Shown here in pieces: positions 9,201-37,273 of a stretch of DNA of 52,002 bases. The notes under the pieces were generated by a model. The model worked only from the letters and a program-made list of their open reading frames with translations. It was not told where the DNA came from and did no database searches. Each line of letters starts with the position of its first letter. Positions within the stretch are counted from its first letter, which is position 1. Source of the DNA: Malonomonas rubra (GTDB lineage Bacteria; Desulfobacterota; Desulfuromonadia; Desulfuromonadales; Geopsychrobacteraceae); the NCBI RefSeq assembly GCF_003247215.1, contig NZ_QKAP01000141.1:1-52002 (forward strand). Reading direction: 5' to 3'. A program made the position numbers and the translations under genes.

Positions 9201-9978
9201 GAACAACGACGCCATGCCCTTGGGCAACCACCTGGAGGAATTGCGCAAACGGCTAATGATCGCGGCCGGCTCCTGGCTCGTCGCCTTTCTCGGTTGCTAC
9301 AGCATCGCCGAACGACTGTTCGAGGAAATCTCCAAACCGGTTCGTTCAGCACTGCCAGAGGGCAGTTCGCTGGTTTTCATCAACGCCACCGAACCGTTCT
9401 TCACCCTGCTGAAAGTCGCCGCTCTGGCCGGACTGGTCATCGCTTTCCCGATTATTATCTGGCAGGTCTGGGGATTTATCGCCCCTGGCCTTTATGCGCA
9501 CGAGAAAAAACTTGTGATCCCCTTTGTGCTGTTCAGCAGCGCCTGTTTCGGCTGCGGCACCTACTTCGGTTTCACCCTGGTCTTCCCGATGGTCTTCTCA
9601 TTCCTGGTGCAGTACGGAACCGGCATCGGTGGCATCAACGCGATGCTCTCGATGGGCGCCTACCTGACCTTGGCCAGCCGCCTGCTGATTGCCTTCGGGC
9701 TGGTCTTCGAGCTGCCGATCGTGATCCTGTTCCTAGCCCGCATGGGAATCGTCGACCACAAATGGCTGGCGAAAAATCGCAAATTCGCCCTGCTACTCGC
9801 CTTCATCATCGGCGCGGTCCTGACCCCGCCCGACCTGTTCTCGCAGACCTCGATCGCTCTGCCGTTTATCATTCTTTATGAGGTCGGCATCATCATGGCC
9901 CGCCTGTTCGGCAAAAAGAAGGTTGTCGATGGGGAGGACAAAGAAGATGATCAGAGCAGCGCCGAAGCAGCCAGTTAA
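9193..9978 (+). CDS. tatC: Twin-arginine translocase subunit TatC
   Basis: TatC is the receptor for twin-arginine signal peptides in the inner membrane. I chose ATG 9193 ([20 protein letters not shown]), which overlaps the previous stop by 8 nt. The longer frame would only add residues translated out of frame from tatA/B. The 261 residues show the family signatures HLEELRKRL at the cytoplasmic N-terminus, six hydrophobic segments, [42 protein letters not shown] and [16 protein letters not shown] charged tail follows ([15 protein letters not shown]). Confidence 0.96.
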
Positions 9979-10029
9979 CTCAACAAACTGTCAATCTATT
10001 TTAGGACGGGACAAACAGACAGCAGAAAA

Positions 10030-10057
10030 GGCCACTCGATTTCGAGTGGTCTTTTCT
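10030..10057 (+). terminator. Intrinsic terminator after tatC
   Basis: The near-perfect inverted repeat GGCCACTCGA / TCGAGTGGTC, with one G-U pair and a very tight loop, is followed by TTTTCTGTT. It lies about 50 nt past the tatC stop. Confidence 0.8.
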
Positions 10058-10262
10058 GTTGCCACATGGTGAAGCCAACCGGACAGATTGACCAGTTGCG
10101 AAACATTTTTCGCCACAACTACAACGGTCAGCCCCAAACCACTCCCCACTCTGAAGTCCGCAATACAAAGAAATCAACATCTTAAAACGTATACGCAACC
10201 CACTGACCAAAAGGCACTTTTCTTGCTTCCCTGCAGCGCTCCTAGCCGAATTGGGAGGCATT

Positions 10263-30959: not shown

Positions 30960-32438
30960 ATGCGCCTGACAGTTAAAATCACTGTAGCGGTCCTTCTGGG
31001 CATTGCCCTGATTTTTTCGATTTTCAGCTACTACTCGATCCAGCGCGAGCGCGAGCAACTGAAGACAAGTCTCAGCCGCGAAGCCCGCCATCTGGGCGAG
31101 AGCCTACGCGTTATGGTTACCGAGATCTGGCAGCAGCGCGGTGAACGGGAAGCACTTGCCTTTCTCCAGCGTGCTAATCAGGTGCATGGTGAAACCCTGG
31201 TCCGCTGGGTTTGGGTCGAAAAGGAGGCCCCGGAAAAATATCTGCCACGGGTGCCGATCGACCAGCTGGATGATCTGTACGACGAGGAAACCGTCGCCCT
31301 GCTGGCCGCCTCCGCCGAAGGGCGCGACTACCTGCTGACCTACCTGCCGCTGGTGATCGACGGGCATCGGATCGGTGCCATCGAGCTATCGGAATCGATG
31401 GACGAAATGCACGATTACGTCGAAGAGAGCCTGCGTCGCTCGGCAATGGTGATCGGGGCCATGGTCATCTCCAGCCTGCTACTGATGGGCGTACTCGGCA
31501 GCCTCTGGGTCAACCGGCCAATGCGCCGTCTGCGCGCCCAGGCCGAACGGATTGGCACCGGCGACTTCAGTACCAGTCTCAACCTTTCCGGCGGTGACGA
31601 GCTGGCCGACCTGGGAAACACCATAGAGCGGATGCGCGCCCAGCTGGCTGAGGCGCGGGAAGCGGAGCAGGCCGCAAACCAGGCCAAAATCGAAGCGCTG
31701 GAAAAACTGCGCCACACCGAGCGGCTGGCGACACTGGGAAAACTGTCGGCCGGCATGGCCCACGAACTGGGTACGCCGCTCAACGTCATCAGCGGCCGCG
31801 CGAAACTGATCAACTCTGCAAATTTGCCCGCCGAGGATGTTACTCGCTCGGCGAAGATCATCGGCGAGCAGGTCGAGCGGATGACCAACATCATGCGCCA
31901 GCTGCTCAGCTTCGCCCGCCGTGGCGAAGCCCGGAAACAACAGGTGGAACTGAACACAGTGCTGCGCAGCGTTACCCCACTGCTGGAACCTAGTCGTAAA
32001 GAGAAAAAGGTCGAAGTCATTTTGCATGAAGCGAAGCAACCTCTATACGTGAGCGCCGACCCGGGGCAGTTGCAACAGGTTCTGCTCAATCTCGCTCTCA
32101 ACGGTATCCAGGCGATGAACGACGGTGGTCGACTGGAACTGGAAGCCTGTTCGGAACGAGAGGTAAAACCACCGGAAACGGTGAACAGCACTGTTGAATC
32201 CTGGTACTCGCTGCTGATCCGAGACCAGGGGAGCGGCATCAACACAGAAGATCTAGCGCATATCTTCGATCCCTTTTTCACCACCAAGGAGGTTGGGCAA
32301 GGTACCGGTCTCGGTCTGTCGATCGCCTACGGCATTATCGAAGAACATGGAGGCTGGATCAATGTCGAAAGTAGTTTGGGCAAAGGCAGCTGCTTTACCG
32401 TTTACCTGCCTGCCGCGGAAGCTGGAGAAAACCAATGA
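30960..32438 (+). CDS. Membrane sensor histidine kinase (NtrB/ZraS-like)
   Basis: The 492 residues show a first membrane helix (about 7-26), a periplasmic loop of about 130 residues, a second helix (about 162-182) and HAMP (VNRPMRRLRAQAERIGTGDF). A dimerisation/phosphoacceptor domain follows with His about 268 in LSAGMAHELGTPLNVISGRA. The ATPase domain has DPGQLQQVLLNLALNGIQAM, DQGSGINTEDLAHIFDPFFT and GTGLGLSIAYGIIEEHGGW. The HELGTPLN box is typical of kinases paired with NtrC-type regulators. It overlaps the regulator gene by ATGA. The signal is unknown; control of degP suggests envelope stress. A TTGACA lies at 30898 without a convincing -10. Confidence 0.94.
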   Translation: MRLTVKITVAVLLGIALIFSIFSYYSIQREREQLKTSLSREARHLGESLRVMVTEIWQQRGEREALAFLQRANQVHGETLVRWVWVEKEAPEKYLPRVPIDQLDDLYDEETVALLAASAEGRDYLLTYLPLVIDGHRIGAIELSESMDEMHDYVEESLRRSAMVIGAMVISSLLLMGVLGSLWVNRPMRRLRAQAERIGTGDFSTSLNLSGGDELADLGNTIERMRAQLAEAREAEQAANQAKIEALEKLRHTERLATLGKLSAGMAHELGTPLNVISGRAKLINSANLPAEDVTRSAKIIGEQVERMTNIMRQLLSFARRGEARKQQVELNTVLRSVTPLLEPSRKEKKVEVILHEAKQPLYVSADPGQLQQVLLNLALNGIQAMNDGGRLELEACSEREVKPPETVNSTVESWYSLLIRDQGSGINTEDLAHIFDPFFTTKEVGQGTGLGLSIAYGIIEEHGGWINVESSLGKGSCFTVYLPAAEAGENQ

Positions 32439-33799
32439 CCGAAACCAAGCTGCCCGGCCGAATCCTGGTCATCGATGACGACCAGGACCTCTGCGAACTC
32501 TTAGAAGAGGACCTGCGGCGGCGCGGCCATACCGTCACCAGTGCGCTACGCGTCAACGCTGCGCGGGAAATCCTGCACAGCGAAGAGATCGACGTGGTGC
32601 TGACCGACCTGAACATGCCCGGTACCAGCGGCATCGATTTGTGTGCAGAGCTGCAGGAGAACCGACCCGATCTACCGGTGGTGATCATGACCGCCTTCGG
32701 CAGCTTGGAAACTGCCATCGCCGCCCTGCGCGCCGGGGCTTACGACTTTGTCACCAAGCCGGTCGATCTCGATCTGCTGAGTATTTCGCTCAACCGCGCC
32801 TTGCAACACCGGCATCTGCAGGAAAAGGTTCGTCTTCTCAAGGATCAGGTTCGTCGCCAGCAACCAGATGATGAGCTGCTCGGAGAAAGCCGCGCCCTGC
32901 AGCAGATCAAGCAGCAGATCGTGCGGGTAGCTGAACTCGACACTTCGGTGCTGATCAGCGGCGAAAGCGGCACTGGTAAGGAACTGGTCGCCCGGGCCCT
33001 GCACCGGCAGAGCAAACGCAGCGATGGCCCGTTCGTCGCCATCAATTGCGCAGCTCTGCCGGAAACCCTCCTCGAAAGCGAGCTGTTCGGCCATGTGCGA
33101 GGCGCCTTCACCGATGCGCGGGAAGGGCGCAAAGGACTGTTTCTGGAGGCGAACGGCGGCACCTTGCTGCTCGATGAAATTGGCGAGCTGCCTCTCGCCC
33201 TGCAACCGAAGCTGCTGCGCGTGTTGGAAGATCATAAAGTCCGCCCCCTTGGCGGGTCGCAGGAGATCAACTGCGACGTACGAGTCATTGCCGCAAGTCA
33301 CCGCGACCTGAGCGAAGCGGTCAGCCGGCAGGATTTCCGCAGCGACCTCTACTACCGGCTCAACGTTATTAACCTGCACCTGCCTCCGCTGCGCGAGCGG
33401 GGCAATGACATTCTGCTGCTGGCACTCGAATTTATCCGCCAGCTGAGTAAAAAGTTCGGCAAGTCGATCACCGGTTTGGCCCAGCCGGCTGCCGCCTGCC
33501 TGCTCGGCTATCACTGGCCGGGCAACGTTCGCGAACTGCACAACATCATCGAGCGGGCTTTAGCGCTAAGTGTGCATGACCTGTTGACCGTCGAAGATCT
33601 GCCGGAACAGGTCAAGCACCCGAGCGGTGAGGCACCACTCCCGACCAGCTTGGTCGATCCCGGCACCATCCTGCCGCTGGAGGAAATGGAACGACGCTAT
33701 ATTCACCAAGTACTCGAGCAACTGGACGGCAACCGCACCCTGGCGGCCAAAATGCTCGGTGTCGATCGAAAGACCCTCTACCGCAAACTCAAAGAGTGA
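32435..33799 (+). CDS. NtrC-family sigma-54-dependent response regulator
   Basis: The 454 residues hold a receiver domain (phosphoacceptor Asp about 58 in VVLTDLNMPGTSGIDL; MTAFGSLETAIAAL; FVTKP). The AAA activator domain follows with SGESGTGKELVARALHRQ for Walker A, HVRGAFTDAREGRKG as the sigma-54 contact loop (GAFTDA in place of GAFTGA), GGTLLLDEIGELPLALQPKL for Walker B, FRSDLYYRLNVINLHLPPLR and YHWPGNVRELHNIIERAL. A C-terminal Fis-type helix-turn-helix (NRTLAAKMLGVDRKTLYRKL) ends the protein. It is the obvious activator for the two sigma-54 promoters that follow, whose palindromic upstream boxes start just past its stop codon. Confidence 0.95.
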   Translation: MTETKLPGRILVIDDDQDLCELLEEDLRRRGHTVTSALRVNAAREILHSEEIDVVLTDLNMPGTSGIDLCAELQENRPDLPVVIMTAFGSLETAIAALRAGAYDFVTKPVDLDLLSISLNRALQHRHLQEKVRLLKDQVRRQQPDDELLGESRALQQIKQQIVRVAELDTSVLISGESGTGKELVARALHRQSKRSDGPFVAINCAALPETLLESELFGHVRGAFTDAREGRKGLFLEANGGTLLLDEIGELPLALQPKLLRVLEDHKVRPLGGSQEINCDVRVIAASHRDLSEAVSRQDFRSDLYYRLNVINLHLPPLRERGNDILLLALEFIRQLSKKFGKSITGLAQPAAACLLGYHWPGNVRELHNIIERALALSVHDLLTVEDLPEQVKHPSGEAPLPTSLVDPGTILPLEEMERRYIHQVLEQLDGNRTLAAKMLGVDRKTLYRKLKE

Positions 33800-33801
33800 T
33801 C

Positions 33802-33834
33802 GGGGCATTTTGCCCCGGCGGGGAAGAATGTCCC
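33802..33834 (+). promoter_or_regulatory. Upstream activator sites, pair 1
   Basis: Two adjacent dyads lie 18 bp apart: GGGGCATTTTGCCCC (33802-33816) and the imperfect GGGGAAGAATGTCCC (33820-33834). The same pair recurs at 34090-34122. Each pair is about 60 bp before a sigma-54 promoter, as expected for the enhancer of the NtrC-type regulator encoded just upstream. Confidence 0.8.
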
Positions 33835-33877
33835 TCCACACAGAGCCCTAAGTTCCCTTTTTCTGGCACTTTCATTT

Positions 33878-33893
33878 TGGCACGTTGATTGCT
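33878..33893 (+). promoter_or_regulatory. Sigma-54 promoter P1 (small RNA)
   Basis: TGGCAC-GTTGA-TTGCT matches the -24/-12 consensus TGGCAC-N5-TTGCW at every position. The expected start is near 33904. No protein gene follows before the terminator at 33987-34020. Confidence 0.88.
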
Positions 33894-33903
33894 AAATTAA
33901 CTT

Positions 33904-34020
33904 GTCAACAATACATGACCGGACATTGTCGTACTGCTCAGCGACGCTTTCCGGTTATACCGAGTGGGCGTTACCTCCTACGCTCGAAAACGGGGAATCA
34001 GCAGGGTTCCCCGTTTTCTT
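33904..34020 (+). ncRNA. Candidate sigma-54-driven small RNA, copy 1 (three hairpins)
   Basis: From the predicted P1 start to the terminator, about 117 nt fold into three hairpins. H1 (33918-33955) has an outer stem ACCGGA/TCCGGT, an internal loop, an inner stem GTCG/CGAC and the loop TACTGCTCAG. H2 (33966-33985) has a stem GGGCGT/ACGCTC and a loop containing ACCTCC (33973-33978), complementary to a Shine-Dalgarno sequence. H3 (33987-34017) is the intrinsic terminator: an 11-bp stem AAAACGGGGAA/TTCCCCGTTTT, the 9-nt loop TCAGCAGGG, then CTTTTG. The longest reading frames across it resemble nothing. All three loops recur in copy 2 at 36094-36197. The structure was read by eye; expression is inferred. 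Confidence 0.75.
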
Positions 34021-34089
34021 TTGCCTTTTTCACGCCATTTCCACCCCGATTTTTGCCTACATTTTTTCACTTATGTACGATCTGCATTT

Positions 34090-34122
34090 GGGGCATTTTG
34101 CCCCAATGGGGAACTATGCCCC
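34090..34122 (+). promoter_or_regulatory. Upstream activator sites, pair 2
   Basis: GGGGCATTTTGCCCC (34090-34104), identical to the box at 33802, is followed 18 bp later by GGGGAACTATGCCCC (34108-34122). The spacing to sigma-54 promoter P2 is the same as at P1. Confidence 0.82.
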
Positions 34123-34165
34123 GGCACATACCAAGCTAAATGACCGTTTTTTCTGTCTGAAATTT

Positions 34166-34181
34166 TGGCATACTGGTTGCG
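34166..34181 (+). promoter_or_regulatory. Sigma-54 promoter P2 (receiver protein-degP operon)
   Basis: TGGCAT-ACTGG-TTGCG keeps the essential GG and GC at -24/-12 with correct spacing. Transcription should start near 34192, 30 nt before the receiver-protein gene. Confidence 0.82.
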
Positions 34182-34221
34182 TAATAAGTGAGTAAAACAT
34201 ATCTATGGAGACTTTTATTCG

Positions 34222-34629
34222 ATGGAAGCTGTCTGTCTCGACACTCATCCGCATATTTTGCTTGCTGAAGACGATGAAGCGTTGCGCGATTTGCTCGATT
34301 TTACCCTGACCCGCGCCGGCTACCTGGTCAGCTGCTGCACCAACGGCCTCGATCTGCTAGAGCGGTTGGCGGAAGGTGACCCCTTCGATCTGGTGATTAC
34401 CGATCTGCGAATGCCCGCCCTGACCGGACTGGAAGTTCTGGAAAGTCAGCTGGATAACCAGCAGTCGGTACCCTTTATTTGCATGACCGCTTTTGGCGAC
34501 CGGAAAACACACGAGCAAGCCGAGCTCTTCGGAGCGGCCGCGATCATTGACAAGCCGTTTGATCTGGATGAGATGATTGAGCTGGTTCGTACCACCAGCC
34601 TCCGTAATCCACACCAAGCAAAACCCTAG
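34222..34629 (+). CDS. Single-domain response regulator (receiver only)
   Basis: The 135 residues consist of one receiver domain without output domain: ILLAEDDEALRDLLDFTLTR, phosphoacceptor Asp about 61 in DLVITDLRMPALTGLEVL, FICMTAFGDRKTHEQAELFG and AAIIDKPFDLDEMIEL (conserved Lys). TGGAGAC precedes the start. It is the first gene behind sigma-54 promoter P2 and lies 11 nt before degP. It may act as a phosphate sink or adaptor that feeds back on the kinase encoded upstream; this is inferred. Confidence 0.93.
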   Translation: MEAVCLDTHPHILLAEDDEALRDLLDFTLTRAGYLVSCCTNGLDLLERLAEGDPFDLVITDLRMPALTGLEVLESQLDNQQSVPFICMTAFGDRKTHEQAELFGAAAIIDKPFDLDEMIELVRTTSLRNPHQAKP

Positions 34630-34640
34630 AGGAGCTGATC

Positions 34641-36086
34641 ATGAAACTATTGAAGTTGCTTACCTTTTTGTTACTCCCACTGTTACTGGTCATTACTGCA
34701 ACGTTGCCGGCTGTAGCTCAAGATGTCGGGCTAGAAAGCCTGCGCGAAAGCGGCAAGGCCTTCCGCAGTGTCGCCAAGCAGGTATCACCAGCGGTGGTCT
34801 ATATTCAGGTCGAAAAGGAGGTCGAACAACAGAACTTCAGCAATCCGTTCGGCAACACCCCGTTTGGTGACGAATTTTTCCGGCGCTTCTTCGGCCAACC
34901 AGACCAGAAGCAGAGCCCGCATAATACCCCACGTAAACACCAGTCGGTGGGGCAGGGATCCGGCTTCATCATCTCTGCTGACGGCTATATCATGACCAAC
35001 AACCACGTAGTCGGTGATGCCGACCGGGTCACGGTGCGCTTGCTGGACGGCCGCGAATTCACCGCCAAAACGATCGGCACTGACCCACCGACCGACGTGG
35101 CACTGATCAAGATTGAAGCCGATGAAAAACTTCCGTTCCTCAAACTCGGCAACTCCGACCAGATGGAGGTCGGCGACTGGGTGTTGGCGTTCGGCAATCC
35201 GTTCGGCCTTTCCCACACCCTGACAGCCGGAATCGTCAGCGCCAAAGGGCGCAGTGGGATCGGCCTGAGCGATTACGAGAACTTCATTCAGACCGACGCA
35301 GCGATCAACCCGGGCAACTCAGGCGGTCCGCTAATCAATCTGGACGGCCAGGTGATAGGCATGAACACCGCCATCTTCAGCCGTAGCGGAGGCTATATGG
35401 GGATCGGCTTCGCCATTCCGATCAACATGGCAAAAAACATCCGCGATCAACTGGTTGAGCATGGCACGGTCACCCGCGGCCGCCTAGGTATTTATATCCA
35501 AGATATCAATAAGGATCTGGCCGATTCCTTCGGCCTCGAGCAAATCGATGGGATTCTGGTCGCTCAAGTCATTGAAGATTCTCCAGCGGCAAAGGCCGGC
35601 CTCCGACAAGGGGATGTAATCCTCGAACTGGACGGCATAAAGGTCGACAAGGTTGCCAAGTTCCGCAACCAAATCGCCCTGACCCGCCCCGGCACAGAGA
35701 TCAAATTGACCGTGCTGCGCGACGGTGAGGAGAAGCAGATCAAAGCAACGATCGGTTCGTTGGAAACCGATGAGCAGGGCAAACCGGTCAGCGCCGACAA
35801 GCTGCCCAAACTCGGGATGAGTCTGCAGAAACTAACCGATGAATTGGCCGGTCAGTTCGGCTATGAAGGAGAGAAAGGTGTTCTGGTAACCGCCGTTGAG
35901 GCTGATTCGATCGCCGACCGAGCCGGTATCAAGCGGGGAGACCTGATCGAAGAGGTCAACCGTAAAGCGGTCACCGAACCACAACAGGTAAAGGAAATGA
36001 TCAAGGAATCGGATAAAAAAACCGTCCTGCTTCTGGTCCGACAGGGCGAAGCCAGCCGCTATCTGGCACTGAAACTGACTGACTGA
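34641..36086 (+). CDS. degP: Periplasmic serine protease/chaperone Do (DegP/HtrA)
   Basis: DegP degrades or refolds damaged envelope proteins. The 481 residues start with a signal peptide ending near LPAVAQD. The trypsin-like domain has the triad His122 (YIMTNNHVVGDA), Asp152 (DPPTDVALIKIE) and Ser227 (DAAINPGNSGGPLINL), with a Q-rich N-terminal insert (NPFGNTPFGDEFFRRFFGQ) typical of DegP. Two PDZ domains follow (GRLGIYIQDINKDLADSFGL, EDSPAAKAGLRQGDVILELD; then LGMSLQKLTDELAGQFGY, DSIADRAGIKRGDLIEEVN). GGAGC precedes the ATG. It is cotranscribed with the receiver gene from a sigma-54 promoter, unlike the sigma-E/Cpx control of E. coli. A structured RNA begins 7 nt after its stop. Confidence 0.96.
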   Translation: MKLLKLLTFLLLPLLLVITATLPAVAQDVGLESLRESGKAFRSVAKQVSPAVVYIQVEKEVEQQNFSNPFGNTPFGDEFFRRFFGQPDQKQSPHNTPRKHQSVGQGSGFIISADGYIMTNNHVVGDADRVTVRLLDGREFTAKTIGTDPPTDVALIKIEADEKLPFLKLGNSDQMEVGDWVLAFGNPFGLSHTLTAGIVSAKGRSGIGLSDYENFIQTDAAINPGNSGGPLINLDGQVIGMNTAIFSRSGGYMGIGFAIPINMAKNIRDQLVEHGTVTRGRLGIYIQDINKDLADSFGLEQIDGILVAQVIEDSPAAKAGLRQGDVILELDGIKVDKVAKFRNQIALTRPGTEIKLTVLRDGEEKQIKATIGSLETDEQGKPVSADKLPKLGMSLQKLTDELAGQFGYEGEKGVLVTAVEADSIADRAGIKRGDLIEEVNRKAVTEPQQVKEMIKESDKKTVLLLVRQGEASRYLALKLTD

Positions 36087-36093
36087 TCCACCC

Positions 36094-36197
36094 GGCCGCT
36101 CAGCGTTCTGCTCAGCGCTGAGCGGCCACCACAGCACATTTTGGGCGTTACCTCCAACGTCCGGTTTTGGGGAATCAGCAGGGTTCCCCATTTTTTT
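36094..36197 (+). ncRNA. Candidate small RNA, copy 2 (degP 3'-UTR, three hairpins)
   Basis: About 104 nt directly after degP repeat the architecture of the RNA at 33904-34020. H1 is a perfect 12-bp stem GGCCGCTCAGCG/CGCTGAGCGGCC with the 10-nt loop TTCTGCTCAG (copy 1 TACTGCTCAG). H2 (36143-36162) is GGGCGTT/AACGTCC with the loop ACCTCC. H3 (36168-36190) is TGGGGAA/TTCCCCA with the loop TCAGCAGGG, then seven T residues as an intrinsic terminator. The stems differ from copy 1 while pairing is kept and the loops are conserved. No promoter is evident in front, so it would be released from the receiver-degP mRNA or act as its 3' end. Confidence 0.72.
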
Positions 36198-36212
36198 AAC
36201 TGCACACCCTAT

Positions 36213-36242
36213 TTGACAGCAAACATCGTTCTGGCGTATACA
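36213..36242 (+). promoter_or_regulatory. Sigma-70 promoter of the DUF815 ATPase gene
   Basis: TTGACA (36213-36218), an 18-bp spacer and TATACA (36237-36242) start 16 nt after the T-tract of the preceding RNA. A leader of about 140 nt would result. Confidence 0.6.
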
Positions 36243-36391
36243 GTCGTTCACTGGAAGCTGCAGGATGGTTTCAATGCTTGTCCCGCCTATCGCGTAGTGA
36301 CTCCCCATTTGTGACAGATTGTTTCCGGTTACCTTTCCCGATTAGAAAACTGTTGCGCATATTTGTATCTAACAAAAGAGAGAGCAAGAAG

Positions 36392-37273
36392 ATGATGAAC
36401 CTGAAACCTGAAGTAGTCGCCCAACTCGAACGTGTGCTCGGCTCGGTGGAGATGTTGTTGCCAAAAGCAAGCAAACCGGTCGATTGGGCCAAGTGCCACG
36501 CCGCCAACTGGCGCCGCCACTCTTTCTCCGGCTACTTGGAGCCCGTCAAGGTGACCGACAACACCCGGCTGGAAGAACTGCTCGGCGTCGAGGAGCAGAA
36601 AGAGACCATGGTCAATAACACCAAACAGTTTCTGCAGGGGCTGCCGGCCAACAACGCTTTGCTCTGGGGGTCGCGCGGCACTGGCAAATCCTCCATCGTT
36701 AAGGCGCTGCTCAATGAATACGCAGACCAAGGCTTAAGAATCATCCAGGTGGAAAAGGAGGATCTGATCTACCTGTCAGAGATTTTCGCGGCGATCGAGG
36801 ACCAACCCTACCGCTTCATCCTGCTCTGCGACGATCTCACCTTTGAAACCGGCGAATTGGCTTACAAGATGCTGAAGAGCGCACTTGATGGTTCCGTCTA
36901 TTCGGCGCCTGACAACGTGCTGATCTACGTCACCAGTAATCGCCGCTACCTGCTGCCGGAGTACGACGGCGACCACCTGGGCGGCAAATACGTCAAAGGC
37001 GAGCTGCAGCAGAGTGAAATTCAGGAGGAAAAGAGCTCGCTGTCCGATCGCTTCGGACTCTGGGTACCGTTCCATGTCTTCTCGCAGGAGCGCTATCTGG
37101 AAGCGGTCAAGCTCTGCATTGAGCGCTGGAGCAAAGACCTCGGCCGCCCGGTCCCCTGGAGCAATGACCTGCAGCAGGCAGCGATCAAATGGAGTCATCA
37201 AAAGAGTAAACGCTGCGGCCGAACCGCCTATCAGTTTTCCAAAAACTGGGTCGGCAAATACCTGATGAAATAG
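36392..37273 (+). CDS. DUF815-family AAA ATPase
   Basis: The start at 36392 (MMNLKPEVVAQLERVLGSVE) follows AGAGAGAGCAAG; the longer frame to 36278 has no ribosome-binding site and a non-coding look. The 293 residues contain Walker A in NNALLWGSRGTGKSSIVKAL, a Walker B-like FILLCDDLTFETGELAYKML and the sensor region VLIYVTSNRRYLLPEYDGDH. SDRFGLWVPFHVFSQERYLE and SKRCGRTAYQFSKNWVGKYL follow. These are the conserved blocks of DUF815, a soluble ATPase family of unknown function that is widespread in Proteobacteria. A strong terminator follows. Confidence 0.9.
   Translation: MMNLKPEVVAQLERVLGSVEMLLPKASKPVDWAKCHAANWRRHSFSGYLEPVKVTDNTRLEELLGVEEQKETMVNNTKQFLQGLPANNALLWGSRGTGKSSIVKALLNEYADQGLRIIQVEKEDLIYLSEIFAAIEDQPYRFILLCDDLTFETGELAYKMLKSALDGSVYSAPDNVLIYVTSNRRYLLPEYDGDHLGGKYVKGELQQSEIQEEKSSLSDRFGLWVPFHVFSQERYLEAVKLCIERWSKDLGRPVPWSNDLQQAAIKWSHQKSKRCGRTAYQFSKNWVGKYLMK

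Follow-up and report, generated by a model that had tools for sequence, protein, structure and literature searches.

A candidate sigma-54 two-component circuit coupling DegP to a small RNA predicted to silence porins in Malonomonas rubra and its relatives

Results

Genes and paired sigma-54 promoters at the locus

The window is the whole stretch of 52,002 nucleotides of Malonomonas rubra DNA that was analyzed, and the features described here all lie on its forward strand. A membrane histidine kinase with HAMP, HisKA and HATPase_c domains (30960..32438), assigned by Pfam and by 17 orthologous loci, is followed by a response regulator (32435..33799) in which Pfam finds a receiver, a sigma-54 AAA+ domain and a Fis-type HTH, the domain set of an NtrC-type sigma-54 activator. 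The window's copy of the activator contains GAFTDA. The original prediction had placed a kinase and a sigma-54 activator directly upstream of the promoters discussed below, and Pfam agrees. The activator scores 393.9 bits, below the ZraR equivalog cut-off of 760, and also falls under the AtoC and NtrC equivalog cut-offs; the kinase scores 168.3 bits, below the ZraS equivalog cut-off of 479.

Downstream lie a receiver-only response regulator (34222..34629, Pfam Response_reg) and a periplasmic protease of the DegP/HtrA Do family (34641..36086), which scores 530.1 bits on NCBIfam TIGR02037 (cut-off 416.2) and contains a trypsin-like domain and two PDZ stretches by Pfam. The receiver-only protein may tune the kinase, and it is not essential, because its gene is missing in several relatives, where the promoter runs straight into degP. 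A DUF815 ATPase is encoded 3′ of the RNA that follows degP (window 36389-37273), as it is in locus L079, and was not seen in most of the other degP loci fetched.

Between the activator gene and the receiver gene are two enhancer box pairs found by box search (33802..33834 and 34090..34122), each made of two 15-bp dyads separated by a 3-bp gap. The first dyad, GGGGCATTTTGCCCC, is exactly the same at 33802-33816 and 34090-34104, and the second dyads begin 18 bp further on, reading GGGGAAGAATGTCCC at 33820-33834 and GGGGAACTATGCCCC at 34108-34122. Each pair precedes a −24/−12 element, one at 33878..33892 with a predicted RNA start at about 33904 and the other at 34166..34180 with a predicted start of the receiver-degP operon at about 34192, both starts being derived from motif spacing. 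An exact TGGCAY-N5-TTGC occurs in the window only at these two positions (TGGCAC at 33878, TGGCAT at 34166), so the positions and sequences of two promoters with the same dyad pair, as originally described, are borne out. The boxes had also been placed about 60 bp before the promoter. This fits the first box, whose end is about 61 bp upstream of the −24 element, but not the second, which ends 43 bp before the TGG of that element at both promoters.

With up to three mismatches, the box has nine matches in the window, some of them a single palindrome read on both strands, against a mean of 2.59 in shuffled sequence, and none of 100 shuffles reached nine. The −24/−12 motif alone, with one mismatch allowed, occurs in the window no more often than by chance (11 matches against 8.94 expected, a count reached by 28 of 100 shuffles). 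A genome-wide search for the box pair, which had been proposed as a way of defining the regulon, returned exactly two sites in the organism's own 3.1-Mb genome at up to three mismatches, both of them at these promoters, and a reversed-pattern control returned none.

Conservation of the box-promoter arrangement in relatives

A kinase scan of named genomes gave 21 loci, among them 17 clear orthologues (61-79% identity, L017-L033), 16 of which are labeled Desulfuromonadales, Desulfuromusa or Deltaproteobacteria and one Chloroflexi. Read by eye, the dyad pair and −24/−12 element come directly after the activator gene in 16 of the 17 loci; the remaining one, L021, ends inside the activator gene. 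What follows the box pair and promoter in relatives is receiver-degP, degP alone or the RNA. Because the named loci overlap with the family genomes considered next (L031 and G049, for example), the two sets of counts were not summed.

The box pair, again with up to three mismatches, is present in 39 of the 44 genomes of the window's family, against seven matches overall in the reversed control, and some of the three-mismatch rows are probably chance matches. In fetched related loci, 41 box pairs of distinct sequence (identical box sequences were counted once) have a −24/−12 element 41-45 bp further on, with 3, 4, 27, 6 and 1 pairs at 41, 42, 43, 44 and 45 bp, in a search open to spacings of 38-50 bp and to a single mismatch within the element. 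At the level of sequence, comparison raises the predicted box pair and promoter well above chance. Eight loci of genus g4 (L133-L140) carry, ahead of receiver-degP, box pairs together with a CGGCAY-N5-CTGC element, and no RNA was found there by the covariance model, among low-score matches or with a strict loop and terminator pattern.

Genomes of this kind hold several sigma-54 activators, so that the boxes might be bound by a regulator other than the neighboring one. We regard this as very improbable, because the boxes lie directly after the activator gene in every named locus that is not cut, and all 36 loci that include the C-terminal part of the activator retain the helix DRKTLYRKL.

Two further sites deserve mention. 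In G049, a near-perfect double dyad (L142 3693-3725, G049:C11:57692-57724) with a −24/−12 element at 41 bp precedes a 138-aa frame of unknown nature and an operon that was named, by eye, MoxR-like ATPase - DUF58-like; this site is a possible further member of the regulon. In Desulfopila aestuarii, several GGGGCA..TGCCCC-like dyads and TGGCAY-like elements (L034, about 9880-10190) follow a distant kinase-activator pair whose kinase is 39% identical; a related box system may extend beyond the family.

A structured RNA family with copies in two settings

The stretch after the first promoter folds as three hairpins, and we assign to it a stand-alone sRNA at 33904..34025 (fold z −4.71, covariance-model match 33919-34023). 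It consists of hairpin H1 (33915-33958, loop 33933-33940), hairpin H2 (33966-33985, loop UACCUCCU at 33972-33979) and a terminator (33986-34018). A second copy lies in the degP 3′ UTR at 36093..36200 (fold z −7.05, also matched by the model), with H1 at 36094-36127, H2 at 36141-36164 (loop ACCUCC, 36150-36155) and a terminator at 36168-36190. The two copies share a 56-nt repeat that is 82% identical. They differ in H1 and in the terminator base and have the same terminator loop, AATCAGCAGGGTT (33981-34025, 36165-36200).

An alignment of 16 sRNA sequences, drawn from the window as well as the named loci, contains conserved blocks, and 92.1% of its cells pair in the three-hairpin structure. The whole structure contains 60 double-changed cells, compared with 20.0 in shuffles, and has a covariation score of 0.380, compared with 0.172 (neither reached by any of 500 shuffles), values that can be inflated by relatedness of the sequences and that include an uninformative helix between the H1 loop and the terminator loop, entered one column out of register. 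Pairs changed on both sides amount to 12 of 13 in H1, 1 of 7 in H2 and 1 of 7 in the terminator. An sRNA family with covariation is thus supported by sequence comparison, and no Rfam covariance model matches window positions 33600-36400 up to E=1. A kissing interaction of the H1 loop (CUGCU) with the terminator loop (AGCAG) was considered and dropped, because the terminator loops vary in L070, L073, L080 and L081, mostly without a matching change in H1.

At E ≤ 0.01, our covariance model matched 31 of 136 genomes of the order, 29 of them within the window's family of 44. The two outside it, G029 and G097, gave weak matches (E 0.0019 and 0.0062) with no degP, box pair or promoter nearby, and their rows were left out, so that 36 of the 38 model rows were kept. 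These are 36 strong copies in 29 of the 44 family genomes. In the other 15, of which three are only 63-81% complete, the strict pattern for the two loop cores plus a terminator picked out none of the 28 low-score rows (E up to 5).

The 36 copies occur in two settings. Twenty-nine start 5-65 nt past the end of a degP match, and none of these has a box pair within 320 nt upstream. The other seven stand alone, each behind its own box pair and promoter. Three stand-alone copies (G055:C135, G084:C143, G049:C18) are on contigs other than that of the degP copy, and therefore proximity to degP does not by itself account for the association of box pair and RNA. The stand-alone copy of G081 sits after the activator on a contig that ends 584 bases on. 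No sigma-70-type promoter was seen around the window's degP 3′ copy, and at two other degP 3′ copies a −24/−12 match with one mismatch lies inside the end of degP, without boxes. The proposal that the kinase-regulator pair activates an RNA and the receiver-degP operon together gains from this comparison, at the 16 named loci and the seven stand-alone copies. What the original prediction missed is that most copies of the RNA are directly 3′ of degP and that its loops match porin starts, as described next.

Loop complementarity to porin-like translation starts

The most conserved single-stranded parts of the sRNA are its loops, with CUGCUCA kept in 31, ACCUCC in 34 and GUUACCUCC in 31 of the 36 copies; deviating loops include CCGCUCA in G081, CUGCUCU in G055:C135 and GCCUCC in G079 and G062. 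In folds of four RNAs, the loops are predicted to be unpaired except for bases at the loop edge. At porin-like genes, the H2 loop is complementary to the Shine-Dalgarno site and the H1 loop to the start codon. This came from a search of the 44 genomes that used no gene reference, only the antiparallel complement of both loops (AGGAGGT-N5-35-TGAGCAG), and that returned 84 rows against 15 in a reversed-pattern control. Fourteen of the 84 are the RNA's own antisense strand. From the other 70 we translated 13, picked because the majority of them resembled a Shine-Dalgarno site and start, and 10 of the 13, from nine genomes, are porin-like starts and three are not. The ten read AGGAGGTAA-N-ATGAGCAG and begin genes that encode a signal peptide ahead of a mature part that looks barrel-like. 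The label "porin" is partly a reading, because among nine of these proteins scanned with Pfam, only three pass the Porin_4 cut-off, two have sub-threshold matches only (Alginate_exp; YfaZ) and four have none.

A tighter pattern, GGAGGT-N3-9-ATGAGCA, gave 54 rows against 5 in the control. All 17 rows reading GGAGGTAA begin signal-peptide, barrel-like genes, one of which (G050) is cut by the contig end after 112 aa, and the other translated rows are mixed or not genes. A long complement, TAGGAGGTAAC-N1-9-ATG, was rejected as a search pattern: it matched in only 5 of the 44 genomes, and two of the matches were the antisense strand of the RNA itself. For most starts, the predicted pairing runs to 9-11 bp for the Shine-Dalgarno site and 6-8 bp for the start codon, with the H1 pairing lines for L078, L079 and L080 left out, and it is imperfect at the Shine-Dalgarno site of the G075 starts. 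We scored starts by contiguous complement to the consensus loops, giving other genes the best of up to eight in-frame starts. The 14 porin-like starts of genomes that carry the RNA obtain 12-19 (12 only for G075b) and the 332 other gene starts score at most 12 (12 being reached by two), a contrast that is inflated because the porin starts had been collected with the seeds or through DNA similarity to one such start, and only those of G072 and G084 were also reached by protein profile.

When four porin leaders were folded, the Shine-Dalgarno site was largely paired in a small hairpin, a hairpin loop exposed GAGCAG of the start region in G077 and G049, and the start region was partly paired in G082 and G089. 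Because the leader folds differ, loop-loop pairing of sRNA and leader is possible but not uniform.

Porin-like genes with unlike mature parts (L179-L187, L245-L264, L271, L272) have a nearly identical leader, comprising a GCCGAA..TTCGGC hairpin, AAGGAGGTAAC and identical signal-peptide DNA. An identical 47-bp dual-seed match occurs six times in G079 (C8, C40, C43, C47, C48, C57), four times at contig ends, and probably lies in a mobile element.

Complementarity at a porin start was found in 13 of the 29 RNA-bearing genomes; in the other 16, the window's own included, we found no readable module porin start. A search of the window's genome with a single porin protein gave nothing, and a profile search gave a porin-like frame that is truncated where contig C111 ends, which is why its start is unreadable. 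Genomes without the RNA keep the module in part, with scores of 18 in G067, 16 in G068 and G048, and 14 in G047, and among those scored only G063, G069 and G070 drop to 10. All 14 starts of RNA-bearing genomes contain ATGAGCA, compared with 3 of the 7 from RNA-less genomes (incomplete G078 left out). Among starts found by similarity rather than by the ATGAGCAG seed, the counts are 6 of 6 against 2 of 6, the six coming from lineages that are not independent (G050, G052, G053, G072 and G075 twice).

Complementarity to a Shine-Dalgarno site is by itself cheap. The 3′ end of 16S rRNA carries an anti-Shine-Dalgarno sequence like UACCUCC, and the UACCUCC loop of H2 holds this core, so the same sigma-54 regulon might instead produce a general anti-Shine-Dalgarno RNA that damps many well-initiated mRNAs, porins being one group. 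The persistence of the RNA in the 16 genomes without a found module porin points the same way. We nevertheless hold this to be unlikely, because the H1 loop is about as conserved as the H2 loop and has no role in such a model, and because searching with the complements of the two loops together ends at a single class of genes.

It is also conceivable, if quite unlikely in our judgment, that the element 3′ of degP is only a terminator or mRNA stabilizer, that the stand-alone copies are its duplicates and that the porin complementarity is a coincidence of strong starts. This would suit the 29 copies that follow degP and the matching porin modules of RNA-less genomes, but a terminator would not require the H1 and H2 loops to be conserved in sequence, and every stand-alone copy has its own box pair and sigma-54 promoter.

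Discussion

The reading that we prefer is that a sigma-54 two-component response probably controls DegP together with a porin-silencing sRNA that is made by two routes. The genes, boxes, promoters, covarying RNA family, its two settings and the porin-start complementarity are what sequence and comparison provide, and from these we infer activator binding, transcription, release of the 3′ copy, repression and an envelope-stress signal. In the circuit we propose, the kinase would sense envelope trouble and activate the NtrC-type regulator, which would bind the box pair, 33 bp long and located at about −102 to −70, and fire the two sigma-54 promoters. The first would give an sRNA of roughly 120 nt and the second a receiver-degP transcript ending in the second sRNA copy, so that the sRNA could arise by both routes. 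The H2 loop region, GUUACCUCCU, would pair with the Shine-Dalgarno region of porin mRNA, AGGAGGUAAC, and the H1 loop, UCUGCUCA, with its start region, UGAGCAGA. This order of sites on the mRNA fits antiparallel pairing because H1 lies 5′ of H2. Translation of porins would then be blocked while DegP clears damaged envelope proteins.

In its fullest form, this is a dedicated sigma-54 envelope-stress response doing the work of sigmaE, with DegP and a two-route, two-loop sRNA from an undescribed family that silences porins at the Shine-Dalgarno site and the start codon at once. We give this form somewhat better than an even chance. Our confidence in the preferred reading above is slightly reduced because the start codon was exposed in only two of the four folded leaders and the dual-seed matches were translated only in part.

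Several known systems resemble parts of this circuit. Two reports on Streptococcus describe the CiaRH two-component system as controlling HtrA and several related csRNAs, which have CiaR promoters and carry anti-Shine-Dalgarno and anti-start-codon sequences, the latter unpaired between stem-loops, with comC as a target (PMC3091779, PMC4507080). The likeness is in working only, one two-component system governing HtrA/DegP and sRNAs with anti-Shine-Dalgarno and anti-start sequences. Unlike CiaRH, the present circuit would use sigma-54 promoters, hairpin loops, an RNA copy after degP and predicted porin targets.

The sigmaE regulator drives periplasmic proteolysis as well, and the sigmaE-dependent sRNAs are MicA and RybB. 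Repression of outer-membrane protein mRNAs by sRNAs is part of the sigmaE response (PMC1804206). There, and by prediction here, an envelope-stress regulator couples periplasmic proteolysis with such repression, but sigmaE is an ECF sigma factor whereas the system described here is an enhancer-dependent sigma-54 two-component system. We know of no relation between this sRNA and MicA or RybB. The original view that the circuit is unlike the sigma-E and Cpx control of degP therefore stands for the wiring, whereas its predicted output, DegP up and porins down, resembles that of sigmaE.

The glnA mRNA is sigma-54-controlled. Known 3′-UTR sRNAs are one from the glnA 3′ UTR (PMC9731577) and CpxQ from the cpxP 3′ UTR (PMC4817254). 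As in those cases, an sRNA would come from the 3′ end of an mRNA that is stress-induced or under sigma-54 control, its release from degP mRNA being our proposal; unlike them, the family described here also includes RNAs with a promoter of their own behind the same box pair.

ZraSR and PspF are sigma-54 activators linked to envelope stress (PMC4987338 and others). The activator described here is likewise of the NtrC type, but it differs from ZraSR in that activator and kinase lie below the ZraR and ZraS cut-offs. To our knowledge, neither ZraSR nor PspF controls degP with an sRNA. In the OxyS-fhlA pair, two sRNA loops pair with two sites around a translation start, as predicted here, but the RNA, regulator and target are all different. 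By regulator and RNA, the circuit belongs to none of the CiaRH, sigmaE and CpxQ systems. In a search of open-licence PMC text, no title or abstract opening among the results describes this RNA or circuit, which does not establish that it is unpublished.

If the proposal is true, a sigma-54 two-component circuit in this group of sediment bacteria joins DegP induction to sRNA silencing of porins, an independent solution alongside sigmaE-MicA/RybB and CiaRH-csRNA. An RNA family absent from Rfam would gain a candidate regulator, promoter and target class along with predictions at the level of single bases. The start module common to unlike barrels would also suggest that translation starts can be kept alike as a shared docking site for an sRNA.
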